Source of the DNA: Nannobrachium achirus
Taxonomy: Eukaryota > Chordata > Actinopteri > Myctophiformes > Myctophidae
Reading direction: 5' to 3'
Length of the DNA stretch: 64,000 bases
Assembly (NCBI GenBank): GCA_963921795.1
Contig: OY997641.1
Span: 73,177,272 to 73,241,271 of the forward strand
Position 1 is the first letter of the stretch. Each line of letters starts with the position of its first letter. The translations under genes were made by a program, and so were the position numbers. Below the pieces are notes generated by a model. The model saw only the letters and a program-made list of their open reading frames with translations, had not been told where the DNA came from and did not search any database. This document shows positions 32,803 through 64,000 of this stretch, in pieces.

Positions 32803-32854
32803 TTAAGGGTTAACTGCACACTTCTCAAAATGAAAATCAAAACATATCGGGCGA

Positions 32855-35300: not shown

Positions 35301-35458
35301 ACACACAAGGCCTTTATAAATAAATATAAGACAATGTTGCTCTCTACTAACTGTGAGAGATGGCCAACCCACTTTTTCATATAAATATGCAAGTCCTTAC
35401 TCATGTCATATCAAATTCCATATCTTAATAAAGTCCTTATTATATTCCTTCATTGCAG

Positions 35459-36879: not shown

Positions 36880-36904
36880 AACTCCTTTACTTGTGCAGTT
36901 TGTG

Positions 36905-38890: not shown

Positions 38891-38944
38891 TTTCACAATA
38901 GAACCTTATTATATAAAATGTAATGCCTCATCTATTAGTGCTCG

Positions 38945-39015
38945 TCAGGGTGGGGGGTCCCCAGTTAAAATATGATTATTTTGGGGTCGCGGCCTGAAAA
39001 GGTTGAGAACCACTG
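38945..39015 (+). mobile_element. Solo 3' end of a ZBED-type hAT (copy B)
   Basis: Equivalent of 8855-8923; ends GGTTGAGAACCACTG. Confidence 0.6.
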
Positions 39016-43111: not shown

Positions 43112-43298
43112 CAGGGGTTTTCAAAGTGGGTGACGGGGCACCCTGGGGTGCCGCGACAGCAGTCCAGGGGTGCCGCGAGATCATCTGATGATATTTGGAA
43201 TTTACTCCAATTATTACTTAATTACAATATATATTTAGTATATATGAAAAGAATATTTATAGGGGTGCCCTGAGCCAAAAAAAGTTTGGGAATCCCTG
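43112..43298. mobile_element. 187-bp hAT element, unit 1
   Basis: The ends CAGGGGTTTTCAAAGTGG and AAAGTTTGGGAATCCCTG are inverted. The exact 8-bp duplication CACTAGTG lies at 43104-43111 and 43299-43306. No coding sequence. Confidence 0.9.
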
Positions 43299-43396
43299 CA
43301 CTAGTGAATCAGTCTGTCAGTCATTCAGTGACAGTTACACATCTCCTCCACCAGGGGGCGAAAGGCATTAAAGCAACAGTGCCTGGATCCATTATT

Positions 43397-43443
43397 GCGC
43401 ATGCGCTAAACACGTTGATCCGGAAGCCGGATCTTCCGGAAGT
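43397..43443 (+). promoter_or_regulatory. NRF1/ETS promoter core, unit 1
   Basis: GCGCATGCGC and paired CCGGAAG/CTTCCGGAAGT, unchanged from 22199-22245. Here the promoter and first exon are not separated by the 730-bp foldback. Confidence 0.65.
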
Positions 43444-43787
43444 AGAATGTTTCTCGCGTGGCGTTTCCACAACAAAGGAACCGTTGGTGTTTCATGGTGG
43501 TTTTGGGACGCGACCAACGAACCTAAGCATAAAGGTGGTTGCCGGGGGGCAAGGAGCTCCGCTGTGTTCACTTGGACCGCGTGGAGGTGCCGAAAGTCGG
43601 GGGGACGAAGATGTAGCCTGTAGGACGGACTTTGCAACGCTCCACACGGAGACTCGCTCGCTTTACCTCGGCGGTGGTGTCTCACGTGGATCAAGTCCGC
43701 TTGAGTGTTGGTGTTTAGTTTCATGGTGGTTGGGACACAGCACGTGGTGAAAAGCTTCTCATATTAAAAGGAGTTAAAACGCTTCAA

Positions 43788-43997
43788 ATGGAGTCTGTAC
43801 GGCTGAAGATAAATGAACACATGACGTCGGTGGGAGAGGAGATATTGTGTGTTTTGGAAAATTAACAAAGTGTTGATGTTTGTCGCGTGAAGCTTGAGTG
43901 TTTGTGTTGGAGCGCCTCCGTGCGGCCACAGAGGTCATGTGCAGCCTCTTCCAGAGAGAGATGGAGACACTACACAACACCCAACTACACACTGCAG
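43788..43997 (+). pseudogene. Zinc-finger first exon, unit 1 (nonsense)
   Basis: Same exon as 23357-23573 up to GEEILCVLE, then AAT TAA replaces AAG CAA, giving a stop at codon 26. A 7-base deletion further on (CTTGAGTG in place of CTCGATGTCAGAGTG) also shifts the frame. The donor CAG|GTATGT at 43997 is intact. Translation of a spliced message could only restart at an ATG in a later exon. Confidence 0.75.
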
Positions 43998-44307
43998 GTA
44001 TGTCTGTTACACACACAACACCACACTACACACTGCAGGTATGTCTGTTACACACCCATCACCCAACTACACACTGCAGGTATGTCTGTTACACACACAA
44101 CACCCAACTACACACTGCAGTGTCTGTTACACTTAAACATACCTGTCTCAGAAGCTTAATTTCAAATATAAAGTGCTTATTCCATGGCCATGTTGCAATT
44201 CTCTTCGGGTGGGTAAAGTAACCGTTTCTTCAGTAGTGTTCAATAAAAATGCATTTTAATCTGAATGGTGGCCATTTTCGGCATATTTCCTCCATATGTT
44301 TCAACTG

Positions 44308-44475
44308 ATTGATTGATTGAAGACTTTATTAGAAGTTTGCATAGGAAAAGGTACAGTTTCATGACGGTACAGTTCACTGGTACAATGTCTACTAAAAGGA
44401 GATCCTAGAAAAGACTAAGCTTATTTTCACAGGAAACCATTTAAGTATCTCATATAACACTGAATGATAGACAAC
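44308..44475 (-). mobile_element. Truncated LINE 3' UTR, unit 1
   Basis: Copy of 23845-24013 inside tandem unit 1. Confidence 0.8.
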
Positions 44476-45165
44476 TACGCAACCCTATCGGTTGGGGTTG
44501 TTTCGAGGTCCCAGTAGACAGAGACTAACCTGGCTTCCCCATAGGAGGAGGTCAAAGGGGGGTGAGTGTGGTGGAGAGAGTCACAGCCCCAGCCTGAAGC
44601 CTCAAAAGTCTAGTATCTGCTCTCATTCCATAGGGATATCCCTTTGAAGTAATGGTTAAGATATTGGGCTTTGACTTCGAAGCCGGGTGGGGAGGTTCGG
44701 ATCACCTCCGTTACACATATAACTTGTTTGATTCACTTTGGGAAGTTTGGGGCGTGACAGCTGTTATGTTTGTTATTACTACTCATACATATGTTGTTTT
44801 GCATATTATTGTAGGCCTATTGTCTTTTGTCATTGAATGTCTCGATGAACTGAATACAAAGGAATGCAATGGAAATGAGCCCTGGCTTTTGTTCTTTTTT
44901 TTTTACAATGTCTTCAATTAAATGAAGTCCCCTCACATCTGTGGGCAAATTACATCCTGCACATAATTCCACATCAAACTCTGCTCTGAGTCTAATGATC
45001 ATTACATCCTGATGTGAAAGAAAATGTGTCAAAAGAATAAAACATGACGGTTGTTATGCAGTTCTTTCTTTTTACCCCTTGTTCTCCCCAATGTAGTAGT
45101 TATGCCAAATGATTCTTCCCCACACTCATTTCTGTCTGCTGTTGTATCCTACTGACTCACTAGTG

Positions 45166-45352
45166 CAGGGGTTTTCAAAGTGGGTGACGGGGCACCCTGG
45201 GGTGCCGCGACAGCAGTCCAGGGGTGCCGCGAGATCATCTGATGATATTTGGAATTTACTCCAATTATTACTTAATTACAATATATATTTAGTATATATG
45301 AAAAGAATATTTATAGGGGTGCCCTGAGCCAAAAAAAGTTTGGGAATCCCTG
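45166..45352. mobile_element. 187-bp hAT element, unit 2
   Basis: Same element and CACTAGTG duplication as 43112-43298, copied with the tandem unit. Confidence 0.9.
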
Positions 45353-45450
45353 CACTAGTGAATCAGTCTGTCAGTCATTCAGTGACAGTTACACATCTCC
45401 TCCACCAGGGGGCGAAAGGCATTAAAGCAACAGTGCCTGGATCCATTATT

Positions 45451-45497
45451 GCGCATGCGCTAAACACGTTGATCCGGAAGCCGGATCTTCCGGAAGT
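45451..45497 (+). promoter_or_regulatory. NRF1/ETS promoter core, unit 2
   Basis: Identical sites to unit 1. Confidence 0.65.
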
Positions 45498-45841
45498 AGA
45501 ATGTTTCTCGCGTGGCGTTTCCACAACAAAGGAACCGTTGGTGTTTCATGGTGGTTTTGGGACGCGACCAACGAACCTAAGCATAAAGGTGGTTGCCGGG
45601 GGGCAAGGAGCTCCGCTGTGTTCACTTGGACCGCGTGGAGGTGCCGAAAGTCGGGGGGACGAAGATGTAGCCTGTAGGACGGACTTTGCAACGCTCCACA
45701 CGGAGACTCGCTCGCTTTACCTCGGCGGTGGTGTCTCACGTGGATCAAGTCCGCTTGAGTGTTGGTGTTTAGTTTCATGGTGGTTGGGACACAGCGCGTG
45801 GTGAAAAGCTTCTCATATTAAAAGGAGTTAAAACGCTTCAA

Positions 45842-46051
45842 ATGGAGTCTGTACGGCTGAAGATAAATGAACACATGACGTCGGTGGGAGAGGAGATATT
45901 GTGTGTTTTGGAAAATTAACAAAGTGTTGATGTTTGTCGCGTGAAGCTTGAGTGTTTGTGTTGGAGCGCCTCCGTGCGGCCACAGAGGTCATGTGCAGCC
46001 TCTTCCAGAGAGAGATGGAGACACTACACAACACCCAACTACACACTGCAG
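45842..46051 (+). pseudogene. Zinc-finger first exon, unit 2 (nonsense)
   Basis: Carries the same stop codon and deletion as unit 1, so both changes precede the tandem expansion. The donor at 46051 is intact. Confidence 0.75.
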
Positions 46052-46360
46052 GTATGTCTGTTACACACACAACACCACACTACACACTGCAGGTATGTCT
46101 GTTACACACCCATCACCCAACTACACACTGCAGGTATGTCTGTTACACACACAACACCCAACTACACACTGCAGTGTCTGTTACACTTAAACATACCTGT
46201 CTCAGAAGCTTAATTTCAAATATAAAGTGCTTATTCCATGGCCATGTTGCAATTCTCTTCGGGTGGGTAAAGTAACCGTTTCTTCAGTAGTGTTCAATAA
46301 AAATGCATTTTAATCTGAATGGTGGCCATTTTCGGCATATTTCCTCCATATGTTTCAACT

Positions 46361-46528
46361 GATTGATTGATTGAAGACTTTATTAGAAGTTTGCATAGGA
46401 AAAGGTACAGTTTCATGACGGTACAGTTCACTGGTACAATGTCTACTAAAAGGAGATCCTAGAAAAGACTAAGCTTATTTTCACAGGAAACCATTTAAGT
46501 ATCTCATATAACACTGAATGATAGACAA
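46361..46528 (-). mobile_element. Truncated LINE 3' UTR, unit 2
   Basis: Copy of 23845-24013 inside tandem unit 2. Confidence 0.8.
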
Positions 46529-46682
46529 CTACGCAACCCTATCGGTTGGGGTTGTTTCGAGGTCCCAGTAGACAGAGACTAACCTGCTGACGCGAGTGAT
46601 TGCTAACCTGCTCATGCAGGTGAATGCTAACCCAAAGCCTAAACCATAACATTAAGCTTAAACCTAACCCCTACCCTTACCC

Positions 46683-46859
46683 GGTTACACCCCGCCATTC
46701 CGAAACACCGCTATTCCGAACGTTGACTTCTAACCCTAACCCTACCCCTAACCCTTACCCTAACCCTAACCCTAACTAACCCTAACCCTACCCCTAACCC
46801 TAAACCTAACCCTAACCCTGCTTCGGAATAGCGGTGTTTCGGAATGGCGGACTGTTGCC
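46683..46859. mobile_element. Foldback element with telomere-like core, unit 2
   Basis: CCGCCATTCCGAAACACCGC at 46692 recurs inverted as GCGGTGTTTCGGAATGGCGG at the right, enclosing ~90 bp of degenerate CCCTAA repeats. It is flanked by CCCTTACCC (46674-46682 and 46860-46868). Copy A has the uninterrupted site (24158-24166), so it is a true insertion. Confidence 0.8.
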
Positions 46860-46867
46860 CCCTTACC

Positions 46868-47133
46868 CAGTGTTGGGTATCGTTACATTTTGAAGTAACT
46901 CGTTAAGTTACATTAGTTTCTGACTTGAAAAAGTAATCCGTTAAGTTACTCCGCTACCCAATGAGAAAAGTAACTTAACGATATATTTTTTCTGTTACCG
47001 ACAATTAAAACACATTTTCAAATGCATGCGCAATTGCATTAATGCGTAACGTCATTGTGCGGCCTTATGGCCCATATTAATGAACTCTGCAGTTAAAAAC
47101 AAGAATGATATACACAATAGACAATATCCACAG
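46868..47133. mobile_element. Truncated left end of the large hAT, in unit 2
   Basis: Matches 49476-49741 and then stops at the unit 2/3 junction. It shows that the large hAT was already in place when the tandem expansion happened. Confidence 0.9.
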
Positions 47134-47783
47134 CGACTAACCTGGCTTCCCCATAGGAGGAGGTCAAAGGGGGGTGAGTGTGGTGGAGAGAGTCACAGCC
47201 CCAGCCTGAAGCCTCAAAAGTCTAGTATCTGCTCTCATTCCATAGGGATATCCCTTTGAAGTAATGGTTAAGATATTGGGCTTTGACTTCGAAGCCGGGT
47301 GGGGAGGTTCGGATCACCTCCGTTACACATATAACTTGTTTGATTCACTTTGGGAAGTTTGGGGCGTGACAGCTGTTATGTTTGTTATTACTACTCATAC
47401 ATATGTTGTTTTGCATATTATTGTAGGCCTATTGTCTTTTGTCATTGAATGTCTCGATGAACTGAATACAAAGGAATGCAATGGAAATGAGCCCTGGCTT
47501 TTGTTCTTTTTTTTTTACAATGTCTTCAATTAAATGAAGTCCCCTCACATCTGTGGGCAAATTACATCCTGCACATAATTCCACATCAAACTCTGCTCTG
47601 AGTCTAATGATCATTACATCCTGATGTGAAAGAAAATGTGTCAAAAGAATAAAACATGACGGTTGTTATGCAGTTCTTTCTTTTTCTTTTTACCCCTTGT
47701 TCTCCCCAATGTAGTAGTTATGCCAAATGATTCTTCCCCACACTCATTTCTGTCTGCTGTTGTATCCTACTGACTCACTAGTG

Positions 47784-47970
47784 CAGGGGTTTTCAAAGTG
47801 GGTGACGGGGCACCCTGGGGTGCCGCGACAGCAGTCCAGGGGTGCCGCGAGATCATCTGATGATATTTGGAATTTACTCCAATTATTACTTAATTACAAT
47901 ATATATTTAGTATATATGAAAAGAATATTTATAGGGGTGCCCTGAGCCAAAAAAAGTTTGGGAATCCCTG
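47784..47970. mobile_element. 187-bp hAT element, unit 3
   Basis: Same element and CACTAGTG duplication as 43112-43298, copied with the tandem unit. Confidence 0.9.
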
Positions 47971-48068
47971 CACTAGTGAATCAGTCTGTCAGTCATTCAG
48001 TGACAGTTACACATCTCCTCCACCAGGGGGCGAAAGGCATTAAAGCAACAGTGCCTGGATCCATTATT

Positions 48069-48115
48069 GCGCATGCGCTAAACACGTTGATCCGGAAGCC
48101 GGATCTTCCGGAAGT
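48069..48115 (+). promoter_or_regulatory. NRF1/ETS promoter core, unit 3
   Basis: Identical sites to unit 1; nearest to the copy-B hAT and to any downstream gene. Confidence 0.65.
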
Positions 48116-48459
48116 AGAATGTTTCTCGCGTGGCGTTTCCACAACAAAGGAACCGTTGGTGTTTCATGGTGGTTTTGGGACGCGACCAACGAACCTAAGC
48201 ATAAAGGTGGTTGCCGGGGGGCAAGGAGCTCCGCTGTGTTCACTTGGACCGCGTGGAGGTGCCGAAAGTCGGGGGGACGAAGATGTAGCCTGTAGGACGG
48301 ACTTTGCAACGCTCCACACGGAGACTCGCTCGCTTTACCTCGGCGGTGGTGTCTCACGTGGATCAAGTCCGCTTGAGTGTTGGTGTTTAGTTTCATGGTG
48401 GTTGGGACACAGCGCGTGGTGAAAAGCTTCTCATATTAAAAGGAGTTAAAACGCTTCAA

Positions 48460-48669
48460 ATGGAGTCTGTACGGCTGAAGATAAATGAACACATGACGTC
48501 GGTGGGAGAGGAGATATTGTGTGTTTTGGAAAATTAACAAAGTGTTGATGTTTGTCGCGTGAAGCTTGAGTGTTTGTGTTGGAGCGCCTCCGTGCGGCCA
48601 CAGAGGTCATGTGCAGCCTCTTCCAGAGAGAGATGGAGACACTACACAACACCCAACTACACACTGCAG
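48460..48669 (+). pseudogene. Zinc-finger first exon, unit 3 (nonsense)
   Basis: Carries the same stop codon and deletion as units 1 and 2. The donor at 48669 is intact; three donor-bearing minisatellite units follow. Confidence 0.75.
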
Positions 48670-48978
48670 GTATGTCTGTTACACACACAACACCACACTA
48701 CACACTGCAGGTATGTCTGTTACACACCCATCACCCAACTACACACTGCAGGTATGTCTGTTACACACACAACACCCAACTACACACTGCAGTGTCTGTT
48801 ACACTTAAACATACCTGTCTCAGAAGCTTAATTTCAAATATAAAGTGCTTATTCCATGGCCATGTTGCAATTCTCTTCGGGTGGGTAAAGTAACCGTTTC
48901 TTCAGTAGTGTTCAATAAAAATGCATTTTAATCTGAATGGTGGCCATTTTCGGCATATTTCCTCCATATGTTTCAACT

Positions 48979-49146
48979 GATTGATTGATTGAAGACTTTA
49001 TTAGAAGTTTGCATAGGAAAAGGTACAGTTTCATGACGGTACAGTTCACTGGTACAATGTCTACTAAAAGGAGATCCTAGAAAAGACTAAGCTTATTTTC
49101 ACAGGAAACCATTTAAGTATCTCATATAACACTGAATGATAGACAA
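48979..49146 (-). mobile_element. Truncated LINE 3' UTR, unit 3
   Basis: Copy of 23845-24013 inside tandem unit 3. Confidence 0.8.
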
Positions 49147-49300
49147 CTACGCAACCCTATCGGTTGGGGTTGTTTCGAGGTCCCAGTAGACAGAGACTAA
49201 CCTGCTGACGCGAGTGATTGCTAACCTGCTCATGCAGGTGAATGCTAACCCAAAGCCTAAACCATAACATTAAGCTTAAACCTAACCCCTACCCTTACCC

Positions 49301-49467
49301 GGTTACACCCCGCCATTCCGAAACACCGCTATTCCGAACGTTGACTTCTAACCCTAACCCTACCCCTAACCCTTACCCTAACACTAACCCTAACCCTACC
49401 CCTAACCCTAAACCTAACCCTAACCCTGCTTCGGAATAGCGGTGTTTCGGAATGGCGGACTGTTGCC
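49301..49467. mobile_element. Foldback element with telomere-like core, unit 3
   Basis: Same element as 46683-46859, with a CCCTAA core shorter by ~10 bp. Confidence 0.8.
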
Positions 49468-50353
49468 CCCTTACCCAGTGTTGGGTATCGTTACATTTTG
49501 AAGTAACTCGTTAAGTTACATTAGTTTCTGACTTGAAAAAGTAATCCGTTAAGTTACTCCGCTACCCAATGAGAAAAGTAACTTAACGATATATTTTTTC
49601 TGTTACCGACAATTAAAACACATTTTCAAATGCATGCGCAATTGCATTAATGCGTAACGTCATTGTGCGGCCTTATGGCCCATATTAATGAACTCTGCAG
49701 TTAAAAACAAGAATGATATACACAATAGACAATATCCACAGCTCTTTTATTAATCATTTCTAAATCGGCCAAAACAATATTCTGTTTTCAATCAATCAAG
49801 GAATCAGAAAATGTCGTATTCGGTATTCCACACCGTGACGACCGTACGCAGACACACAGCAGCCAGTCGTTTTTTCTTTTGCATTAGATTAGGGCCTATA
49901 AATTGTGAGACGCCAGACAGACAGAAGTTACAGAACGAATATAATAATTAGGCCTAATTAAAACTAAACTAAACTAAAAACAAAAGGGTGGCAATTGGAC
50001 AAAAAATAAATAAATACATAAATCAAAATAAATAAAGGTTCGTTTCTCTCAGACAGACAAAACGAATACAATAATTAAAACAAAACAAAACTAAAAACAA
50101 AGGGTGGCAATTGGCAAAAATAAATACATACATAAATAAAGCAAACTAAATAAAGGTTTTTGTTTTGTACGGTGATTGTCATCATCATTGCTGACACATG
50201 ACAGAGAGATGGCTAACAGCTGACATTCTAATTATATGAATTACAGAATAGGCCTGTCGGCTGTCGCATATGACTGAGCTTGAACTTTTTACAGAAATAA
50301 GGACTACTTTTGTTTTTTAACCAGAAAATAATAATAGTTCCATTACCCTACCT

Positions 50354-50920
50354 TTACTGTACAATTACCGGATCGGTGCCCTGGAGAGAGTCGGTGGCTT
50401 TATCGTCTTCTTCGTTTAATCCAAAGTGGTGGTTGTACCTTAAGAGAACAAGTTTTTCAAAGCGTTGGTCGGATAGTCTGTTCCTCTTGGGCGTGAGGAC
50501 CAAACTACCGAGGCTGAAAAGCCTCTCCACGGGGGCACTGGATGGTGTCGGGGTGTTGAGTCGAAGAAAGATCTGTTTGATCCTGGAGAATTTATTCAAT
50601 ACATCGATCCTATCACTTGACTTGAGATAATCCGCTATTTCAGAGTCCGGAGACACCGCGGCTTCGGCCTCTCCTTCTTCTTCATCGTCGAAATCAAAGA
50701 AATCATCCTCGTTCGCTCCGCCGGCGACAGGTGCAGGCCGCGGTGGTTCCAGACGTGCCGCCGCAGGCAGAGCACGACACTCGGCAGCGAGAAGCATCTT
50801 GGTGCGGTCTTTTCGCTCGTTGTCCCTCCTCATCCATCGCAGCTTGAATTTAGGAAGGGTCGCTGCTGCCAGCAAGGCCTCCTTACTTTCCAGCGTGGCT
50901 GCGAAACGCCTCTTGACGGC
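50354..50920 (-). pseudogene. hAT transposase last exon, copy B
   Basis: Acceptor at 50920/50921 (minus strand TCTTACAG|GCC). It encodes AVKRRFAATLESKEALLAAA, the acidic linker and the hAT C-terminal dimerisation region PSSAPVERLFSLGSLVLTPK, with the stop at 50354. The frame is complete, but the gene is split by insertions upstream. Confidence 0.85.
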
Positions 50921-51147
50921 CTGTAAGACATTATGCAAGACACAGATATCAATATTACAAAGTTATTTCACCTAATATTTTTCCCAATGTTATTTGTGTA
51001 ACATTTATAGCGACACACATTACATTACATTTTAGCAACACCCTCAGTATTAATTTAATAAGGGTAATAATAATAATAATAACTAGGCTACAACAACATG
51101 GACAGTGTACATTATGATAAAGTGCTATATGAGCACACATTTTTTAC

Positions 51148-51386
51148 CTCAATTATGACATCGGGCAACCCAGATGTCGTACGGGAGACATGATCCTTTA
51201 ACACCAGGGTTTTCTCCATCAGCCTATGGAGTGTTGGTAGGATAGTTCCATAAAAGCAGTGGTCTTCGCCTTGAAGAATATCCAAGGCCTCTGTGAGGGG
51301 CTTCACGACCATACAGTACTCTTTAAGGAACTGGTACTCTTTCTCTGTAATGCACCTGATGCCTAGTGCTGTGCAAAGCTTATTAA
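51148..51386 (-). pseudogene. hAT transposase central part, copy B
   Basis: On the minus strand this reads NKLCTALGIRCITEKEYQFL and KPLTEALDILQGEDHCFYGT, to the donor GAG|GTAAAA at 51148. It directly continues the N-terminal part at 58799 if the TTAA-flanked element is removed. Copy A lacks this portion. Confidence 0.85.
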
Positions 51387-51973
51387 AGTGATCCCTGAAT
51401 AGTAGGCCATGTAGGCCTTAATATGTTATAATAACCCTCTTTAACCAAAATATACCTTTTAATACACTCAGAATGTCTTCCTTTGAGAGAAATAAGTCCT
51501 ATGTTCAACCCCTGGGGGGAGTCTGTCGCTGAGTAATGACGTATGCAAATGCATTTTGGGTGGACGGCCCATAGGGTTAATTTAAAACCAAATTGACCGA
51601 TGCTCTAGACCAGTGGTTCTCAACCTGTGGGTCGCGACCCCCAGGGGGGTCGCCAAAAAATTTGGGGGGGTCGCCAGATTTTTTGGTAAAAAAAAAGAAA
51701 AAAAGAAAAAAAAAGAAAAAGAAAAATGCCTGGAAAACATTTTTATAAAAACATTTCATAGCGAAAAATCGACAAAGTGGAATGGATGTGTGTGTGACAG
51801 TGTGTCCTGAGCCTGGCTATGTATACATGCATTGTGTGTAGCAGCACGTGATCCTCCTCCTCCCTTAACCCGGAAACTCACTAATCTCAATTTAACTGGA
51901 CAGCCACGCACATGAGCGAAATGCACCCAGGTAGAAAATAAATAAAACATTGTATGACCACGATATAAAAGTC

Positions 51974-52083
51974 ATGGACAAGTGGGTTATCAGAAAACGT
52001 CCGCACCCTGAAACAGGCCAAGAACAAGCGTCTCAGGAGGAGCCACCATTGACAACAGGTGAAGATAAAGATGAAGATGAGCC
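51974..52083 (+). pseudogene. N-terminal piece of the ZBED-like transposase
   Basis: The ATG at 51974 opens MDKWVIRKRPHPETGQEQAS and continues to DEDEP, where the foldback at ~52084 begins. It is probably the true start of the transposase resumed at ~53555. MDKW-type starts are typical of this hAT group. Confidence 0.6.
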
Positions 52084-53554
52084 GGTGTGACAGATCGTGT
52101 GGTTTCTGGATTGTCTGGAGACCAATTGTAGTCCTTTTGGCTCGGCAGATGTTGTTTCAGGAAGTGGGGGCGGAGCTCCCTTTGTCATTCATGCTGCATA
52201 ATGTTCTTTCAATAAACTATCTTTACATATCCATCCAATTGTTTCTGGAATCTTACTTGTATGAAACAGTAAAAACATGCACTCCAAAAACACAGTTGAC
52301 AATGATTAAAATAAAAATAACAATAATTATAATAATAATGTGGGAATTGAACCGCCTCAGTAGTGAACTAAATGGATCCTTGTTACAATGCTTTACCTGT
52401 CACGCTACCAACCATTGATTCCCTCATCTGGAAAGATGTATTTGAATGTGGTGTGAACGTTGGAAACAAGTTAACATGACACACCATGATTTTCTAGATC
52501 AACTGGTGTCAGTGGTGTCCTGTTGTTTTCTAACAGATCTAAGCGCTCTGTTCAACTGATCATTTAATAGCTGTAGAAACAAGTCAATGATGTTGGTATA
52601 ATCACACCAGGCAACGCAAACTCTTGTGTGAAGTCTGACAAATACATAATAGCCTATCAATCTTTTCATTACAAAGGCTATACATACATTATGTGTCATA
52701 AGTAGGCCTAATTGGCTGGTTAAAAAATAGCATTAATGCGCAGAGGTGTCTAGAGTCCAGGTTAATGGGCTCGATATTTATTTGATACATATATGCATAA
52801 ATAATAACATTATGTAAGATATTTGTACTGCAGTAATACACAGTGGATCCATCACCACCATTTGAATTGGTGTAAATTGCTAAACATAAAACCAACAGCA
52901 GATGGTGCTGTTTTATGCTCTGAGAAATGAACAAGTCCAATTTGCTCAATATGTGTAATGAAAAGATTGATAGGCTATTAGGCCTATGTATTTGTCAGAC
53001 TGCACACAAGAGTTTGCGTTGCCTGGTGTGATTATACCAACATCATTGACTTGTTTCTACAGCTATTAAATGATCAGTTGAACAGAGCGCTTAGATCTGT
53101 TAGAAAACAACAGGACACCACTGACACCAGTTGATCTAGAAAATCATGGTGTGTCATGTTAACTTGTTTCCAACGTTCACACCACATTGAAATACATCTT
53201 TCCAGATGAGGGAATCAAGGGTTGGTAGCGTGACAGGTAAAGCATTGTAACAAGGATCTATTTAGTTCACTACTGAGGCGGTTCAATTCCCACATTATTA
53301 TTATAATTATTGTTATTTTTATTTTAATCATTCTAACTGTGTTTTTGGAGTGCATGTTTTTACTGTTTCATACAAGTAAGATTCCAGAAACAATTGGATG
53401 GATATGTAAAGATAGTTTATTGAAAGAACATTATGCAGCATGAATGACAAAGGGAGCTCCGCCCCCCACTTCCTGAAACAACATCTGCCGAGCCAAAAGG
53501 ACTACAATTGGTCTCCAGACAATCCAGAAACCACACGATCTGTCACACCGGCAT
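52084..53554. mobile_element. ~1.5-kb foldback element inside the hAT transposase
   Basis: Inverted arms of ~590 bp (52084-52672 and 52957-53554) that look almost identical, with a ~285-bp spacer. The outermost motif is CCGGTGTGACAGATCGTG and complement. Each arm contains a tRNA-like stretch (TTGGTAGCGTGAC ... CGGTTCAATTCCC at 53220-53294 and inverted at ~52350-52425). No coding sequence. The target duplication cannot be separated from the palindromic CCGG. Confidence 0.8.
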
Positions 53555-55384
53555 GTTGTTCTGCAAACATTGCTGCAAAACGAAAACATGTGTCAAAGTC
53601 GGCAAATCCCACGTCCACGTCCAAGCGCCGGAAATATCAAGCAGAGTTTTTGCAGTATGGGTTTACGTGCCATGTGAAGGATAACATTGATTACCCACTG
53701 TGTGTTCTTTGTAATGAGTTACTTGCTAACGAGAGCTTGAAACCCTTCCAACTTAAAAGACATTTGCAAACGAGACATGAGGATGATATCAACCAACCAT
53801 TGGAATATTTTCGTGAAAAGGAGAGTGGCCTGGGCGGACTACAGACAAGAATAACTGAATATGTGTCAATCCCTTCCAAAGCACTGGCAGCTTCTTTTGA
53901 AGTGGCACATCTTGTGGCCAAAAAAAAAAATCGCAGAAGAGCTCATCCGCCCAGCAGCCCAGGCAATGGCAAGGCATATGCATGGAGACGCAATAGCAAA
54001 ATCATTTGAGACCATCCCATTGTCAGATGACACTATGTGCAGGCGTATTGGTGAAATGGCAAATTACATTAAATGTCAGGTCACTGAGCGAATGAAGAAA
54101 AGTGGGTCGTTTTCACTGCAGATGGACGAATCAACGGACGTTGCCAACTGCGCCAATTTGCTTGTCTTTGCAAGGTACAGCCACGAAGGAAAAATAAATG
54201 AAGAGCTGCTGTTTTGCCTGTCCCTGGAGGGGACGTGCACGGGACAGGACATCTTTAATGCAGTGGACAGTAAACTGCGCGAAGAGGGACTAAGTTGGAA
54301 ACACTGCAAATCTGTGTGCACAGATGGAGCTGGTGCTATGCAGGGATCAAGAAAGGGATTAAAAGCCAAAGTTAGGGAGGTGGCGCCCCATATTAAATTC
54401 ACCCATTGTATGATTCACCGCGAATCACTGGCGAGTAAGCCCCTAACCCCAGAGCTGCAGGAGGTGCTACAAACGGCAGTTAAAATAGTAAATTTTATCA
54501 AATCCCGCCCTTTACAGTCCAGATTATTTGCAACACTTTGCCAAGAAATGGGATCTGAGCATGAAACCCTACTTTTCCACACAGAGGTGAGGTGGCTCTC
54601 ACGGGGCAGAGTACTGACCAGACTGTTTGAACTGCGTGAGGAGGTGCGGGTGTTTTTAACAGAGCATCAGTCTCCCCTTGCTGCCCACTTGAGTGACCCT
54701 CGCTGGGTTTGTGCCCTGGCATACTTGGCTGGAATATTTGATAAACTCAACACACTAAACCTGTCGCTCCAAGGCTCAAACAATAACATTCTCAATATTT
54801 CTGATAAGATCGCTGGGTTTCAGAGGAAGCTGGAACGCTGGGCAACGCGAGTCAATGAGGGTAATATTGACATGTTTCCAGAGCTCGAGGATTTCATGGA
54901 TAATTATGACATAAATAGAGACATCATAAACGGAGATATCATCTCTCATCTGAGAGGTTTGACTGACTGTTTCCGCAAATACTTCCCAACAGATGACGCT
55001 CCAGAAAGATATGATTGGATACGCTATCCCTTTACCGAGTCCACGGGCGCACACTTGTCATCAGAACTGCAGGACGCGCTGTTGGACCTTTCAGCCGATA
55101 GGACATTGCAGATCAAGTTCAAATCATCCACACTGGAGGAATTCTGGCTATCTAAAACTGTGGCTGCGCAATATACTGAACTGTCAAAAGCAGCAATGGA
55201 TGTTCTGATTCATTTTCCGTCCACTTACCTATGTGAAAAGACGTTCTCTGCGCTCACATATATAAAATCAAAATACAGATCACGACTCACCAGAGTTGAA
55301 GATGATCTCCGTGTTGCTGTGAGCAATATTGAGCCTAGATTAGCACTTCTCTGTTCAAAGAAACAAGCGCAGCCATCCCACTAA
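53555..55384 (+). pseudogene. ZBED5/Buster-like hAT transposase (one frameshift)
   Basis: The first frame holds a BED finger (CVLCNELLANE ... LKRHLQTRHED); the second runs to the stop at 55384. The A(10) run at 53921-53930 separates them by a one-base shift. The catalytic landmarks are present: FSLQMDESTDVANCANLLVF (first Asp), CTDGAGAMQGSRKG (second Asp), CMIHRESLASK (CxxH), RWLSRGRVLTRLFELREEV, and a C-terminal FPSTYLCEKTFSALTYIKSK with the expected Glu. Relatives are the domesticated ZBED5/SCAND3-type genes. The only defects I see are the homopolymer shift and the foldback insertion, so it is young. Confidence 0.85.
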
Positions 55385-56035
55385 CCTCAAAAGGTAGGCA
55401 TATGCCAAAACAATTCATAAATTGTTCATAAAAAAAAGTGCTGTCAAGATGTTATGCCGGTTACATTTAATAGTGTGGATGGAAACGAAGGTGTAGTTCA
55501 CATATAAATGTAGGCCTATTTGTTTCCCTTTTTGTTTTTCTTTTTTGCTGGACAGTTTAATGTAAAATGTTAAGAGCATATGAATGCAGCTGTCAGTGCT
55601 GTCAGATACGGTTACATTATATTGTTTGGAAACCAGTGCATAGTTTCCCATATTTGTTTCCCCTTTGTTTGCTGGACAGTTTCATGTAACGTTACGAGCA
55701 TAATTAATGCAGCCGTCAGATCCAGTTAAATGATATATTGTTTCTCCCTTTTTTTTCTTTTATTGCTGGACAGTTTCATGTGGCTAAAAACGTTAAGAGC
55801 ATAATTAATGCAGCAATAAGAAAATAAATGCGTCATTATTCATATCACGTGTCAGTGTTGTTTTCTCTGCATAACTTTAAGACGTAGCCTAGTAGTGAAA
55901 GCAGCCGATCTACAAGCTCACAATGCGGCGCGGTGAGGCGGGGCGGGGGGGGGGGGGGGTCCGTAAGGGCCGGGGGTCGCGAGTCAAAATGTGATTATTT
56001 TGGGGGTCGCGGCCAGAAAAGGTTGAGGACCCCTG
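55385..56035. other. 3' untranslated part of the ZBED-like hAT
   Basis: It contains three diverged repeats of a GCTGGACAGTTTCATGTAAC-type phrase (55547, 55672, 55766), the recurrent motif CCGATCTACAAGCTCACAAT at 55905, and a G run (55946-55959). Confidence 0.6.
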
Positions 56036-56043
56036 CTCTAGAC

Positions 56044-58132
56044 AACGTGGCCCCCTTGCAAACCACCAGGGTTAAAGCCCGCCAAGAGCCATGGTATAAC
56101 TCAGATATTACCGAATCAGCTAAACTCAGAGACAAAAAGTACGATGAAAAACGTAAGTGCTGCAAAAAGCTTAGAAAAAAATTCAACCATGACCTCAAAA
56201 TCCAAATCAAACATCTTACTGCTCAGTGTAAGAAGCTCAGAAACCAGACAATCGCCCTAATTAGATCCGCCAAAAAAGACTACATCGACGTCAAAATTGA
56301 CGAATACAAAAACAAACCACGAGACCTATGGAAGTTGCTTAACAACCAATTAGGCTTAAAACCTAAAACCATATGCCACAGCATAAACATCAAAACGGAC
56401 GCCGCTCTCATTTCTGACAAATGTGAAGTGGCTACCCATCTTAACAAAACCTTTACCACCATGGCCCATTCACTGGTTGAAAAACTGGTCGCCCCATCTG
56501 GGCGGTATGGTGTAAAATTTGTTAAGAAATTCTACAATAAACTGGGCGTCAGAAAAGACAGTTTTAAACTTGCCACAGTGACAACTGATGAAGTGTTTAA
56601 AAAACTGAGCGCCCTACCTCAACACAAGGCCACTGGCCTTGATAAAATTCCAGCTAGATTTCTCAGAGATTCAGCCGCCACCATTGCACCGATCATTACC
56701 CACATAATTAACCTTTCCATCGAACAGGGTCATGTCCCACAGGACTTCAAACTAGCAAAAGTAACCCCCCTGCATAAAAAAGGTAGCAAACTAGACCCTG
56801 GAAACTACCGTCCCGTTTCCATTCTTAGCTCCATATCCAAAGTCATGGAGAAAATAGTCTACGAACAGATAGCAAGATATCTCGATGAGAATAATCTGAT
56901 TTACGAGTTCCAATCTGGATTCAGAAAATCTCATTCCACTGACACATGCCTTCTGTATTTGACTGACCAAATCAAGCGCGAGGCGGATGACGGCAAATAT
57001 AGTGGCATGGTAATGATGGACCTCCAGAAGGCATTTGACACCGTAAATCATTCTATTCTGATTGAGAAACTAAAAGCCATCGGTCTTGACAGCGCAGCAG
57101 TGAGTTGGATGCAATCTTACCTGGTGGGGAGGGAACAGGTGGTGGAGATTAACGGTACCCTGTCCCCCCCCCTCCCAGTAAGCTGTGGTGTTCCTCAAGG
57201 TAGCATACTGGGACCTCTGTTGTTCCTAATATACGTGAACGACATGGCATCTGCTTGTGACTGCAACCTGTTCCTGTTCGCGGATGACTCGGCTCTCCTA
57301 GTCTCGGGCAAGGACCACTTGCAGGTTGAAAAGACACTTAACTCTGAACTAAGTAAGATCTGCACATGGCTTAATGACAACAAATTATCAATTCACCTGG
57401 GAAAAACTGAGTCCATCCTCTTTGGATCAAATCATAACCTCAAAAAAGTCGATAACTTCACAATCAAAGTGGGTGACAAGGTCATAACACGAAAAAACGA
57501 AATCTCTTACTTAGGATGTATCCTTGAAGCTAATCTTTCCAGTGAAAAGATGACTTCTAAAGTAATAAATAAAATCAACCAACGAACTCGTTTCCTACAG
57601 AGGATCGCCCCAATGGTCAATTTCAACACACTGAAGACCATAGCTGGTGCAATAATCCAGCCCCTCTTTGACTACGGAGTCCACGTATGGTATCGTGACG
57701 CCCCACAAGCCCTGAAAACTAAACTCCAAACAGCCCAAAATAAACGAATTAGGGTCCTACTTCACCTTCCCTATCAGACTCACCTCACCGCTACTCACCA
57801 GTTAAGAGTGGGGTGGCTCAGAGTAGATGACAGAGTACAGCAACTTGCAATGGGCCTGGTGTACAAGATACACTACACCACTATGATACCCAAGTACCTG
57901 TCAAAATACTTTATAAACATTAAGGATGTCCATAATTACAACACCAGAGGCAGCGCCACAGATCACTTTCAACCCAGAGTCAAAACCAACAAAGGGTCAA
58001 ACTCTTTTTTTCTGCTATACCACCAAAATGTGGAAAGCCTTACCGAAGGTCATAAAGGAGTGTGGATCACTAGCATCCTTTAAAATTGCCCTGAAGAATC
58101 ACTTACAGGCAGCAGCCATTCGCAACTGGTAA
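56044..58132 (+). pseudogene. LINE reverse transcriptase ORF, 5'-truncated
   Basis: The frame continues from 51610 across the hAT. Landmarks of a jockey/CR1/L2-type reverse transcriptase are present: KATGLDKIPARFL, KLDPGNYRPVSILSS, MMDLQKAFDTVNHS, GVPQGSILGPLLFLIYVND and the catalytic FADD. A T(7) run near 58003 shifts the frame. The usual C-terminus (KMWKALPKVIKECGSLASFK ... NHL) is read in another frame and ends at 58132. No endonuclease is present. It has almost no other damage. Confidence 0.85.
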
Positions 58133-58798
58133 AAAACTAACCTAGCCCAACCCTACCCTCCCCTGCCCCTTCTTGTATACTGTTTATTTAGACTTACTGT
58201 TTTTTTCTTTTTTTTTCTTTACATATCTACTGCATAGTACTGTGTTCTATTTGTCTGTCATTCAATGTTATATGAGATACTTCAATGGTTTCCAGTGGAA
58301 ATAAGCTTAGTCTTTTCATGGATCTCCTTTTAGTAGACCTTGTACCAGTGAACTGTACCGTCATGTAACTGTACCTTTTCCTATGCAAACTTCTAATAAA
58401 GTCTTCAATCAATCAATCAATATGGAACGTCAAAACAACGTTCTCTTTACAATATTTAAAACATTGTCTTGAAGCTCAGATTAACTGTAGTTAGTAGTTT
58501 GGTGCTTTTCTGTTCTGTTCATATCAAGTAGGGTGTTTTGACGTGCTTGTAAAGTGCTTAATTCAACATCTAAAAGTGTTTACACCGCCATTTTAAATGG
58601 GCCCGTCCACCCAAAATGCATTTGCATACGTCATTACTCAGCGGCAGACAGTGCAATGGCTCCCCCCAGGGGTTGAACATAGGACTTATTTCTCTCAAAG
58701 GAAGACATTCTGAGTGTATTAAAAGGTATATTTAGGTTAAATAGGCTTATTATAACATATTAAGGCCTACATGGCCTACTATTCAGGGATCACTTTAA

Positions 58799-58890
58799 GG
58801 TCTACGAGGGGATTGTCAATGACTCTGTTCAGGGCATCATAGAAGGAGTTCCACCGTGTTTTAGAAGGAACCAGGAGCTTCCTCCTGCAG
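58799..58890 (-). pseudogene. hAT transposase middle piece, copy B
   Basis: Minus strand: RRKLLVPSKTRWNSFYDALN ... NPLVDL, between the two insertions. It is in frame with both neighbours once the insertions are removed. Confidence 0.85.
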
Positions 58891-58898
58891 ATATCTTC

Positions 58899-60573
58899 TA
58901 GAGGTGCACCGATCCGTTTTTTTCTGTTCCGATCCGATCCGATACATTAATTTGGCTATTTCCCGATAACCGATACGATACCAGATATTTACAGTAGGCT
59001 ACATAGCAAAAAAGCTTCACCTTTAAGCCATTTATTAATTGTAGGATAGCTTCAGTTCAAATAACAGAGTGCATTCAGTGCAACTGAGTGCAAAATGCAA
59101 TGGCAACTCTTTTTATATAAATTCTTCAAATAACCCGGTCTAATTATTGATATAATATTGATGCCAGCTGGTCATTCACTTAAAGTAATATACTACTGTA
59201 TATATGTTTCAATAATGTTGTGCCATTGCTGCTATGTCTGTGTCACTGTTAGAGCTGCATGATATAGCAAAACCTTTATTTTTAAATTATGTGTAGGCTA
59301 CATTTCAGATGATTTATTTCAAATATTATTGTTAATAATATTATTATTGAATAAATATTGTTTTAACAAGCAAAATCGTATCTTAATGCAAAAGGATTGT
59401 CTTTAAAGCTCAAATAAATAAGGTTGCATTTCCAAGGTGAGACATTTACCTCACAATAGTCTGACTAGCCTGGTCCTTTCAAATATTTAAGGGCAAAATT
59501 ATTACCTCATGCCCCTGCTCCGGTTGTTATGGCTTGTAAAACACATGGGTAAAACCTCTGTATAGGGACTTAATACATTTCTGTTGCTTAATGTACTTTG
59601 TGAAACTATCGTAGGAGACTATAACGACTTTTAACGAGCTTCACCTGGACATGCATGAATTAATCCAGCGTGTGGAGACACACGACGACATCAAGCAAAG
59701 TGATCTGACTTTCAACAACAGAGAAACGGGAGGTGATTCTCCTTTGAAACTGGCTAAAATAAAGAGACATTCATAGGATGGCTTTTTCTCTATAGCTTGC
59801 AACAGCTTTAGCAATGCTGTTGCATTCTGTCTATGAAAGTGAAAGTGAAACTCCTTCTGACCGTCTGGACGCAGGAAAGCCTGGTGACACAATGCTTTTT
59901 TTCTTTCTCCTTCATCTTTTTTTGAGACGACAATGATACAGGATTATGGAATATATCCTTACATTGCAAAGGTAATCAGCACCATCTGTATTCGGTAGGC
60001 TGCTAATGTTTACTGAGTGTCAGGCATAGAGTTATAATAAGTAGGACCAGAGCATCTTGCTGTGCAGCAGGGAGTGCAGAGAATGTAAAAAGAGGCAGGG
60101 GCTGACATTTCTAAAAAGGCATTTTGGTGGACAATTCTCTTGAATGTAGTTATGGTATGGCATTTCTTTTACCATAGTAAAAAAAAATGCATTCATGGTC
60201 TGAAGAGGGCAATTTTTACAGACATAAAAGGGCAGGGGCTCAAGCCCCCTTTGATGTCTGTGTGCACGTGCCTGCTGTGCAGGCTGCAGCGAAGCCGTGT
60301 CTCGTTAAGACAAGGGTGGAGGAGCGACAAAAAAGTTTGATCCATAAGAAGATTTTGGGATGTTTATTTAATAATTATATGCTAAAAACATTTGGTCATG
60401 GCCCCATGGGCTTACAATTGCGTGATTATATTGTATATTTATTATTCTTATTATTATTTATATCGGGGCTTGGATCGGCGACGTTGTGTCGATATCCGAT
60501 ATAATTAATTAACATTAATTACCTTCATATCGGCGTCCGATACCGATCCAATATCGGTATCGGTGCACCTCTA
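58899..60573. mobile_element. hAT element (TAGAGGTGCACCGATCC ends)
   Basis: 1675 bp with inverted ends TAGAGGTGCACCGATCC / GGTATCGGTGCACCTCTA and the exact 8-bp duplication ATATCTTC (58891-58898 and 60574-60581) inside the larger hAT's transposase. Subterminal GATCCGATCCGATAC repeats are present. No transposase was recognised, so it is a non-autonomous element. Confidence 0.95.
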
Positions 60574-60581
60574 ATATCTTC

Positions 60582-61652
60582 CACGCTCTCTGATGCCACA
60601 GATGACCTGCTAGCTTTGTTCCACAGGCCACAACATTTGGTAGTGGAGCTCCTGTACACCCCCTTCACTTCATTGTTAGACAACAGCCATTTCTCTATGT
60701 CATTGGTGGCTATGAGATTGAGCGTGTGCGACGCACACCTGTGATGTGGAGGGAGGACAAAGTTGTTGTCCTCGTCTTCGTCAGCCGTGGAAAGGACTGC
60801 GTGTAGATCTTCAAAGGTAATATTTGCGCTTACTTCCTCCTCCTCTGATTCAGACCCAGGCTCGGATCCAGCCTCCTCCTGGTAAACCTGGATGGCTTTA
60901 ACAAAGTTAGAGCCGTTGTCGGTGACGGTGGCTGTCACTTTACCACTCAGGCCATATGATGTGTGAATCTGCTCGATTTCAAAGGCAATGACGTTATAAG
61001 TGTGCTTTCCCTTAACTCGCCTACAAGCAATGGCAGCTTTCTTGCGCTCCAAAGTAGAGGGATGGATCCAGTGGGCTGTCATTCCCATAAAACTCTTATT
61101 GTTTGCCGTCCACAGGTCTGCTGTGGTGGAAACGTATTCTATGCTCTCAAACGTTGATTTCAGTTCTTTCTCCATATCATGGTAAGCCTTGTCGAGGTAG
61201 CTGGAAAACGTTTTCCTGTCAGTTGTTCCATCCTTGTTCCCAGCCATAGGGATTTTCTTAATGATCTTGCGGAAAGACTTAGATTCTACAGTTGAGATGG
61301 GAAGCATCTCCTCCACCACATAACCAGCTACGAGCTTGTTGAGTTCTTTTTTAGTGACGGTAGCGAGAGATAAATCTATTTTTGGTTGTTTGGGAGCTGA
61401 AGGCCCGGCTTCGTTGTTGTTTACCTCCGTATCCTCGTCAACACTCCTCGCCACCAGTTTAGTGCTGCCGTGTTTAGCTTCCAAGTGCTTCTTTAAATTA
61501 GCCGTAGATATTTTGGAAGCAGACAGGCACTTGTTACCCGGACACAGCTTGCATTTGAGAGTCATGTTTTTGTCTTTTTCTCCGACATAATCAAAATAAT
61601 GCCTGTATTTCCATCTCCAAAAGGCCGACACTGGTCTATCGTTCTCAGCCAT
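60582..61652 (-). pseudogene. hAT transposase N-terminal part, copy B
   Basis: The ATG at 61652 (MAENDRPVSAFWRWKYRHYF) is followed by a BED finger (CKLC ... HLEAKH, residues ~36-66), a linker, TADLWTANNKSFMGMTAHWI (first acidic residue), VTDNGSNFVKAI (second) and HHRCASHTLNLIA (CxxH). Unlike copy A, there is no stop in the BED finger and the frame at SVED|ICRRK is correct when the element at 58899-60573 is removed. The transposase was therefore probably intact when the insertions arrived. Confidence 0.9.
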
Positions 61653-62140
61653 TTTGCTTGTCTGTACAGACCGCGCTGCTGCAGAGGGCTCTTGTGCACA
61701 TGCGCAGAGGGAGGCAGACAGACAGACAGGCAGACAGACAGCTACACACCCCGTTCACACGTGTATTTGTTGACAGAATAAGACAGGAGGAGGAAAACTG
61801 ACTCGGGGCTTCTCGGGCTTCTTTTTTACTCGTTGGCAACAAAATTAACAGTGAAAATTGAACACTTTTTAAAAAAAATAACGGGATTACTTTTTTGAAA
61901 ATATAACTAAGTAACTAACCGTTATATTGTAAAATGTAACTCGTTAGTTTACTCCGTTACCGCCAAACTAACGTTGTTACGTAACGCCGTTAGTTATAGC
62001 GCCGTTACACCCAACACTGCCCTTACCCTAACCAGACTACTGGGACCTCGAAACAATAGAAATATCGAGAGTCTGCCTTTGGTTGGGCAGGTGTACAGCA
62101 CTCTGAAATGGCCACTCTTTATTGAAAGATACGGAAGGTA

Positions 62141-62367
62141 AGGGCGGCAGTGGCTCAGGGGTAGATAAACCGTCATTAGAACACAGAGGGTTCCCGAAGG
62201 ATTCCCAGTTTGATCCCGGACTCCCTCAGAGTTGGTGTTGAAGAGTCCTTAAGCAAGAACCCCTGGTTGCTCCCGATGAGCAGGTTGGTACCTTGAATGG
62301 GTGAATGTAAATCTATGTAAAGCGCTTTGGATAAAGTCGCTATATAAATGCACCATTTACCATTTAA
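62141..62367 (+). mobile_element. tRNA-derived SINE (copy B)
   Basis: Same element as 31580-31806. Confidence 0.75.
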
Positions 62368-62707
62368 GGGTACTTCTGCGGGCCTGAAGAGAATTGTAGA
62401 ATCAGTGGTCATCGAGTAAGCACTTTATATTTCATATATTTATATTTATAGATCAGGCTTTTGCTGTGGTAGCCTATATCCCTACTCTCTCTCTCATAAT
62501 GTTCATAGGGCTCAATAGTGGGCAGGTTTGTCCCTCTACAACCAGACAGGTTAAAAGTATCAATTTCAGACATATATTTCCAACAACCTATTGAAAAAGA
62601 AATAATATTAATAATAAAAAAGCTGAAACTACCGAACGAAACCACTTTGCACAGTGAAATCGATGGTTAGTTAATCGAAGGATAGTCGCTCAGTCGTAAG
62701 TTGTAAC

Positions 62708-62787
62708 TAGGGTTGGGCACGGTAACCGCCGTACCGCCTTACCGCGGTATACCGCGGCCTACCGCGGTGTCACGTTCCTTACCGCGG

Positions 62788-62819
<32 letters not shown>

Positions 62820-64000
62820 CAATCTGGGGGTGTAAGTTATACAAATCCAATTGTGTGATATGAAATGAAAAGTTTACCATAATAAACAATTATCATTGTT
62901 TAGTGTCTGACTGTCTGTGATTAATATCTGTATCATGCATGTAGTAGCCTATACACTGCGGCTCTGGCTCCTCTCAGTCTGGCTAGCTTGTTGTGTATTC
63001 GGGTCGTGTCGGAGACGGGGGCGGGGTTGGAGGTATGGGTCAGCATCCAGAGCAGATCTACAAGCTCAACTTGCATCTGAGGCGACGGCGTTGTTAGCTT
63101 GTAAATCAGTAAACTCAAGTGTTGTGCTTCTGTAGAAGCCACGACCCTGCACAGCGGGGGTGACTGAGGCACGGACAACTAGGTCATACACAGGTCATGG
63201 GCCAGTCCATTATAAAGTTAAGGGGTTTCCATTTGTTTGTGTGCATGATAATTAATTATTCCTTGGCTTTAGTATTACAGAAATTGTTAGATTTAATTTA
63301 TATAGTCTACAAATGCACAACAGTTTGAGTTTCATTATTACTTACTTAGTTACTTATAGGCAAACGACACCCATTTCGATATGGATCATTGTTTAAGTGG
63401 ACCCGTCCAACTTCAACATCCAAGCAACAAGTGATGCGCTCGCTGATCAATCATTCCATCGCACCCCAAAATGGCAAGTGGAGGTGACCGTGTAGATGTG
63501 GCTAATTTAATCACAAAGCCAAATACCACAGCGGCGATTTGGAAATATTTTGGTCTTGAGTCTGATGGCCATGGCAACCCAAAGAATACGAGAGAGGTTA
63601 TTTGCCGCATCTGTGGGTGCAGGGTTCCCGTTGTTCCTGGGAATACTACAAACCCAAAGTCGCATCTGCTACATAACCATCCCGAAAAGTTTGCAGAGAT
63701 GAACCGCGGCAGCGGCGGCACCACCAGCTCGGGAGAAGGACAGTCGGAGTCAAGACCAACAACTGGCCAGCGACAGCTGGGGGTCTCCGAGGCCTACGCC
63801 AGAGTGGCCAAATACAATCGAGATGGCAGCAAGTGGCGCGCGCTCACAGAAAAGGTGACTTATTTCTTGGTCGAAGACATGTTGCCATTTCGCACAGTGG
63901 AAAAGCCAGCATTCAAAGACATGTTGAAGGCGTTGGACAAACAATACGTTCTCCCTGACAGAAAATACATTTCACACACAGCAGTGCCAGAATTGTATAA
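62708..64000 (+). mobile_element. hAT transposon running off the window (TAGGGTTGG ends)
   Basis: Starts TAGGGTTGGGCACGGTAACC with subterminal ACCGCGGTA palindromes, then a poly-A run (62790-62815). The likely left target copy is GTTGTAAC (62700-62707); copy A shows the uninterrupted site at 32130-32145. The right end is outside the window. It belongs to the same family as the 944-bp derivative at 15350-16293 and includes the recurrent GATCTACAAGCTCA motif at 63055. Confidence 0.85.
63471..64000 (+). CDS. ZBED1-like hAT transposase, partial at window edge
   Basis: The ATG at 63471 opens a frame with no stop to the end of the window (176 codons). It begins MASGGDRVDVANLITKPNTT and has a BED finger at ~residues 24-70 (IWKYFGL; CRICG; KSHLLHNHPEKF). 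A Gly/Ser linker follows, then SKWRALTEKVTYFLVEDMLP and FRTVEKPAFKDMLKALDKQY, the standard hAT segment before the catalytic domain. It should bind the element's ends and catalyse cut-and-paste transposition. Intact as far as visible. A domesticated ZBED gene is unlikely, given the adjacent hAT terminal repeat. Confidence 0.85.
   Translation, partial: MASGGDRVDVANLITKPNTTAAIWKYFGLESDGHGNPKNTREVICRICGCRVPVVPGNTTNPKSHLLHNHPEKFAEMNRGSGGTTSSGEGQSESRPTTGQRQLGVSEAYARVAKYNRDGSKWRALTEKVTYFLVEDMLPFRTVEKPAFKDMLKALDKQYVLPDRKYISHTAVPELY

Follow-up and report, generated by a model that had tools for sequence, protein, structure and literature searches.

A chain of five nested transposons with one side insertion, beside duplicated zinc-finger genes

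The nesting of mobile elements is already used as a relative clock in published methods, including TinT (PMC3014933) and interruption analysis (PMC2517846), according to the parts of these reports available to us. Among DNA transposons, the Ginger1 group has TGTNR ends, terminal inverted repeats (TIRs) of ∼40-270 bp (a reported range, with no stated requirement), and a 4-bp target duplication of CCGG or CCGT/ACGG, with CCGG as the target in 75%, as given in the available sections of Bao, Kapitonov and Jurka (2010, PMC2836005). Kolobok elements have AG-type ends, one Xenopus end reading AGTGATACTGA (excerpts of PMC6004289). Here we describe a 64-kb stretch of contig OY997641.1 (the window, meaning the whole stretch of DNA analysed), animal-like DNA with duplicated zinc-finger genes, where six mobile elements, belonging to four kinds, lie inside or next to one another.

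Positions 48800-64000 and 23700-33300 were read, and the whole window was compared with itself. The best explanation of the whole, which we hold with high confidence, is six insertions that form a chain of five plus one side hAT, beside duplicated C2H2 genes. The outermost hAT element carries the nest and is referred to as copy 2, while a sister copy of this element in the first half of the window is referred to as copy 1 (Table 1). A preliminary description had proposed the nest, and it is real: the element ends match base for base, both in the self-comparison and as inverted repeats. The target-site duplications (TSDs) proposed for the outer hAT, the TTAA element, the ZBED-type hAT and the separate hAT within the outer transposase are exact copies on both sides, and the foldback of ∼1.5 kb within the ZBED-type hAT measures 1,462 bp. 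Exact TSDs are thus present at five of the six insertions, and inverted ends on all five DNA elements. The ends are fixed by the inverted repeats independently of the TSDs. The duplications CTCTAGAC (ZBED-type hAT) and ATATCTTC (side hAT) each occur twice on the plus strand of the window, both times at the element ends; on the minus strand CTCTAGAC has two further occurrences and ATATCTTC has none. The duplication of the outer hAT, CCCTTACC, is less telling (nine plus-strand and two minus-strand places), because this element sits among CCCTAA-like repeats.

The order outer hAT, TTAA element, long interspersed nuclear element (LINE), ZBED-type hAT and foldback is sound, since it follows from the nesting. 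The structure is a five-level chain with a side branch, and the side hAT is unordered relative to the chain. The "complete relative chronology" first proposed is too strong a claim, since the side hAT has no place in the order, the LINE has no clear TSD, and a TSD establishes that an element was inserted without telling when. To call nearly every level time-stamped was an overstatement, since the LINE has no clear TSD and an uninformative frame test. The use of TSDs or of foldback arm divergence to date the layers was dropped, the former being undated and the latter possibly predating the insertion.

Table 1. Coordinates of the elements, their duplications and their predicted coding parts in the window
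Feature	Position	Strand	Details
Outer hAT, layer 1 (copy 2)	49476-62019	- (transposase)	TIR CAGTGTTGGGT; inverted repeats, frame, Hermes match
Left TSD of outer hAT, CCCTTACC	49468-49475		Self-comparison
Right TSD of outer hAT, CCCTTACC	62020-62027		Self-comparison
Outer transposase, predicted exon 1, first part	60582-61652	-	Start codon 61652-61650; frame, edges by eye
Outer transposase, predicted exon 1, continuation	58898-58799 then 51386-51148	-	Frame, edges by eye
Outer transposase, predicted exon 2 (hAT dimerisation region)	50354-50920	-	Frame, Pfam match below cut-off
Outer transposase, predicted GT-AG intron	50921-51147	-	Inferred by eye
Layer 2, Kolobok-like TTAA element including both TTAA copies	51383-58798		Self-comparison, ends
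TTAA element proper	51387-58794		TTAA at 51383-51386 and 58795-58798
5'-truncated LINE, layer 3	51572-58420 (approximate; left edge 51570-51575)	+	RVT_1, ATCA-repeat tail
ZBED-type hAT, layer 4	51611-56035	+	TSD CTCTAGAC at 51603-51610 and 56036-56043
Layer-4 transposase frame	51974-55384	+	Broken by foldback, shifted at A run near 53921
Ginger1-like foldback, layer 5	52086-53547		Ends TGTGACAG...CTGTCACA; 1,462 bp
CCGG TSD copies of foldback	52082-52085 (left), 53548-53551 (right)		Frame longest with exactly one CCGG
Left foldback arm, 588 bp	52086-52673	+	Inverted-repeat alignment
Right foldback arm, 594 bp	52954-53547	-	Compared with left arm: 587 aligned bases, of which 6 mismatched; 3 gaps
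Side hAT, presumed non-autonomous	58899-60573		TIR TAGAGGTGCACCGAT; TSD ATATCTTC at 58891-58898 and 60574-60581
Side-hAT target in copy 1	30023-30031		Reads ATTATCTTC against ATATCTTC; side hAT absent
Sister copy of outer hAT (copy 1)	24166-31469	-	TSD CCCTTACC at 24158-24165 and 31470-31477; 0.7% divergent
Different insert in copy 1	25520-29926	-	Right end GGCTGGGAATGAG adjoins same TTAA, 29927-29930
Third copy of outer hAT left end	46868-47134	-	In 2.6-kb tandem duplication; 0/267 differ from copy 2

Removal of the layers had also been said to restore the reading frames at each step. Of the five elements inserted within the outer hAT, this is so for three, the TTAA element, the side hAT and the foldback, and not for the other two, because the TTAA element has no frame for the removal of the LINE to restore, and the frame test across the ZBED-type hAT in the LINE does not discriminate. 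When the TTAA element and the side hAT are cut out exactly, the longest open frame of the outer element has 515 codons, compared with 426 codons when both TTAA copies are kept, 416 when both copies of ATATCTTC are kept, and 409 in the uncut sequence; randomly misplaced TTAA cuts (up to 60 bases off per side) still gave 500 codons or more in 59 of 500 trials. The 515-codon frame can be read as exon 1 entering a GT-AG intron, followed by a second exon that would end in the hAT C-terminus. This C-terminus matches the Hermes transposase (residues 580-632, E 4.7e-8), and together with the 8-bp TSD and the TIR its dimerisation region places the outer element among the hATs. Pfam gave no family for the outer transposase at E 0.001 and only matches below cut-off at E 5, and none of its 87 pattern matches in genome_contigs was confirmed by tblastn.

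The TTAA element has arms of ∼185 bp (6 mismatches in 185 aligned positions and one gap) and ∼560 bp of its own sequence, taken as non-coding, with no transposase gene such as the THAP/DDE gene of Kolobok. It is flanked by the TTAA duplication and has the purine-purine (AG) terminal bases of Kolobok, with AGTGATCCC at both ends. Assignment to piggyBac was rejected because the ends are AG-type. A search of the left part of the element against phages gave no match. The LINE within it has a reverse transcriptase (RVT_1, E 2e-37) and a 3' tail, as in non-LTR (long terminal repeat) retrotransposons. Its frame across the ZBED-type hAT has 663 codons after exact removal and 664 with both TSD copies, which is uninformative because the insert has only ∼13 LINE codons on its left side, and the frame still shifts once, in a homopolymer run near 58004.

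The ZBED-type hAT likewise combines an 8-bp TSD and a TIR with a dimerisation region (Dimer_Tnp_hAT, E 5.7e-5, 23.3 bits against a cut-off of 21.4). It may resemble the Buster/ZBED5 group, a lead from the preliminary description. Its target CTCTAGAC fits the TcBuster target nnnTAnnn, as stated in the accessible part of the hAT literature cited below. No BED finger exceeded the Pfam cut-off in layers 1 and 4, and part of the layer-4 transposase had no pattern match in viral_contigs. Up to the A run the frame is 175 codons long if a single CCGG is kept, 137 if two are kept and 125 if none is, against 170 in the uncut sequence, so that length by itself is indecisive, because the uncut stretch happens to be open; after removal of the foldback one shift is left, at the A run near 53921. 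The side hAT has an 8-bp TSD and a TIR but no recognised transposase.

The foldback consists of two arms around a 280-bp centre, each arm reading TGTGA...TTACA, and it is flanked by a 4-bp CCGG duplication. Both ends begin with TGTGA and so agree with the TGTNR termini of Ginger1. A 3-bp CCG duplication was considered and dropped, since CCGG suits the flanks and the frame. The element is called Ginger1-like, and not a Ginger1, because its arms exceed the reported range. It is unlikely that the foldback is something else that happens to be flanked by CCGG, either a pair of LTR-like arms in inverted orientation or a foldback of no recognised class. In favour of this, the arms are longer than those reported for Ginger1, there is no transposase, and a TGTNR start is also typical of Gypsy LTRs (same partial source, PMC2836005), but TGTNR faces outward on both sides together with the target most used by Ginger1, and no primer-binding-like or gag/pol sequence was noticed by eye in the centre. 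Teleost counts of Ginger have been tabulated in PMC4746887, of which a portion was available (6,053 in a column taken as zebrafish, and 236 in another teleost, the column being uncertain). With Ginger already recorded in teleosts, finding it in a fish would be no surprise; what stands out is the arm length, although long-armed forms may already have been published. The foldback is thus a candidate long-armed Ginger1-like element in vertebrate-looking DNA.

Copy 1 belongs to a duplicated unit with zinc-finger genes and sits at the same CCCTTACC target as copy 2. The two halves of the window align piecewise and in the same order over ∼30 kb, and each carries C2H2 zinc-finger genes, with 10 finger matches in the first of the two stretches read, where Pfam confirms them, and 7 in the second. 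These paralogous genes, at 3572-6016 and 35314-37547, differ in finger number. In zebrafish embryos, blocking one zinc-finger family derepresses transposons (from the available part of PMC10547256); the genes in the window are not assigned to that family.

Between the copies, 27 of 4,051 bases differ in the hAT block and its near flanks, compared with 172 of 4,223 in the neighbouring duplicated DNA (12 aligned pieces, 1.9-9.7% each; Fisher P 2e-26), leaving out the finger repeats 4594-5390. The least divergent piece is the 5' part of the zinc-finger gene (19/1,003), and the piece closest to the hAT block, with 12 of 464 bases differing, is by itself distinct from it (P 0.0004). An earlier sum over six hand-picked pieces (27/4,055 against 65/∼2,199) is superseded by these 12. 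Because the hAT block is less divergent than its neighbours, we infer that the units came to share it more recently than they did the rest, through conversion or unequal exchange. The sister transposase has one stop codon and a one-base shift, and the nine codon differences before the shift comprise seven amino-acid changes, one silent change and one stop, the pattern to be expected where selection is absent. At 8851-8925 and 38943-39015, matching places in the two units, lie sequences related to the ZBED-type hAT's right end, and elements of this type had therefore probably been active by the time the units were duplicated.

Copy 1 carries a different insert, presumably piggyBac-like, at the TTAA used by the stack in copy 2. 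Use of the same TTAA in both copies was dropped as a remarkable feature, since the layer-free outer hAT contains 24 TTAA sites and the coincidence has a probability of ∼1/24. Treatment of copy 1 as an empty TTAA site was also dropped, as the left flank is missing; no empty site is seen, and the stack could have arrived either before or after the split. The 2.6-kb tandem duplication, which contains the left end of the hAT once more, agrees with copy 2 at all three positions that differ from copy 1, and therefore came after the split. In the same region, 42469-49204 comprises three near-identical 2.06-kb tandem units (first against third, 2/2,060 differences; second against third, 0/2,058) with GACTAACCTG at the joints, a recent duplication or an assembly artefact. 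Just left of copy 2, 49300-49467 (168 bp), with its counterpart in the tandem repeat at 46682-46859 (178 bp), is an insert with 34-bp inverted arms around CCCTAA-like repeats, flanked by two CCCTTACC copies and absent from copy 1, and is perhaps a further small layer.

The target of the side hAT in copy 1 has one extra base (ATTATCTTC), the only insertion or deletion in 2,896 aligned hAT bases, which suggests an excision scar. On a tentative reading, somewhat less likely than not, the side hAT predates the last sharing of the units and was later excised from copy 1 with a one-base scar; the stack, too, may be older than the split, copy 1 having lost it by deletion. The chance that the sole indel falls within the 8-bp target is 8/2896 = 0.003, a value computed after the indel had been seen. 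Excision scars of hATs are small insertions and deletions (in the portion of PMC3499496 available), but excision would here need the loss of most of one TSD copy, and a one-base slip or an assembly error yields the identical target sequence. Copy 1 has no sequence corresponding to 50830-51386, and one deletion could have taken the stack. The foldback arms are moreover no less diverged than the sister copies: on a naive clock (6/587 in the arms against 27/4,055 in the sister hAT block, Fisher P 0.30) the foldback is not shown to be younger than the split, a test of little force because the arm divergence may predate the insertion.

Alternatively, the side hAT and the whole stack may have reached copy 2 only once the split had taken place, and copy 1 would owe its extra base to an unrelated mutation; here the chances seem evenly balanced. 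This history has the simplest event count, and besides a LINE tail in the left flank copy 1 has only short matches to the stack (≤45-48 bp, to the subterminal ZBED-type hAT). It does, however, require the coincidence that the sole hAT indel lies inside the target, and the absence of the stack is uninformative where copy 1 is deleted. A joint reading, which we consider very improbable, would make the foldback a Ginger1 form with LTR-like arms of ∼590 bp, intermediate between a Gypsy LTR pair and Ginger1, a DNA palindrome mobilised by an integrase of Gypsy type, with copy 1 keeping the excision scar of the side hAT. If so, one locus would record insertion, sharing between paralogues and excision.

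Several observations weigh against the chain of five with one side hAT as described. The outer hAT is the sole layer of which another full copy was seen in the window, and because other full copies were not seen the family names draw on ends, TSDs and partly weak protein matches. The PF05699 match of the outer transposase (18.7 bits) is under the Pfam cut-off of 21.4, the layer-4 finger has no zf-BED match (its zf-C2H2_12 match in Pfam scores 15.3 bits, cut-off 27.3), and the foldback arms of 588 and 594 bp are outside the Ginger1 TIR range of ∼40-270 bp. The LINE flanks have no clear TSD, with AAAAC (5 bp) as the one direct match of at least 5 bases. Several LINE groups lack clear TSDs. In addition, the counterpart of 50830-51386 is missing in the sister copy, and the sister copy or the tandem units, above all the latter, may be false assembly duplications.

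From what is known of these families, the outer hAT, the ZBED-type hAT and the side hAT would each have been inserted by a hAT transposase at an 8-bp staggered target. A TTAA-specific transposase would have placed layer 2 at a TTAA within the outer transposase gene, the LINE would have arrived by target-primed reverse transcription, and an integrase-like Ginger1 transposase would have put the foldback at CCGG. These insertions broke the outer transposase gene and the ZBED-type transposase gene. Insertion of the outer hAT probably preceded the last sharing of the region between units (by duplication, conversion or unequal exchange), which would account for its presence at the same target in both; afterwards the stack would either have been retained in copy 2 or have arrived there, and copy 1 would have lost part of the element and come to carry a different insert ending at the same TTAA.

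Other features of the window include, at 62709-64000, the first part of a further hAT-like element, which carries a BED finger (Pfam zf-BED 2.3e-5), is cut by the window end, is absent from unit 1 at 32138, and has a relative of its end at 16196-16293. The self-comparison also gave further palindromes and a large inverted repeat (1496-1706, 19235-19416, 37847-38200 and 12606-13237/17173-17807). A tRNA scan of 48000-64000 and an Rfam scan of the whole window at gathering scores found nothing.

The nest consists of known kinds of element in ordinary stacking, of which it is a very clean example, and as a unit it has no function. Transposon nests of such depth are probably not rare. Novelty is limited to the Ginger1-like foldback signature and to the sister copy of the outer hAT as an internal control. 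The understanding of these element families is unchanged, but the locus provides a tidy worked example, in which the chain order is readable and a built-in control 25 kb away has the target of one layer but not the insert. Like TinT and interruption analysis, so far as the available parts describe them, it uses nesting as relative time, at one locus here and genome-wide there. The hATs of the nest have in common with the hAT superfamily (Hermes, and the Buster/ZBED5 group) the 8-bp TSD, short TIRs and, in layers 1 and 4, the dimerisation region, and the targets of the outer and side hATs, unlike those of TcBuster, do not fit nnnTAnnn (PMC3606216, PMC3499496 and PMC3942097, each in part). The TTAA element shares with Kolobok and the T2 miniature inverted-repeat elements (T2-MITEs) the TTAA target and purine-purine ends, the Xenopus AGTGATACTGA being near its AGTGATCCCTG (PMC6004289, excerpts); it differs in having no transposase gene. 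The foldback shares with Ginger1 the CCGG duplication, TGTNR ends and inverted terminal repeats (PMC2836005, in the sections available), and differs in its longer arms and in being, in this copy, non-autonomous and devoid of a transposase gene.

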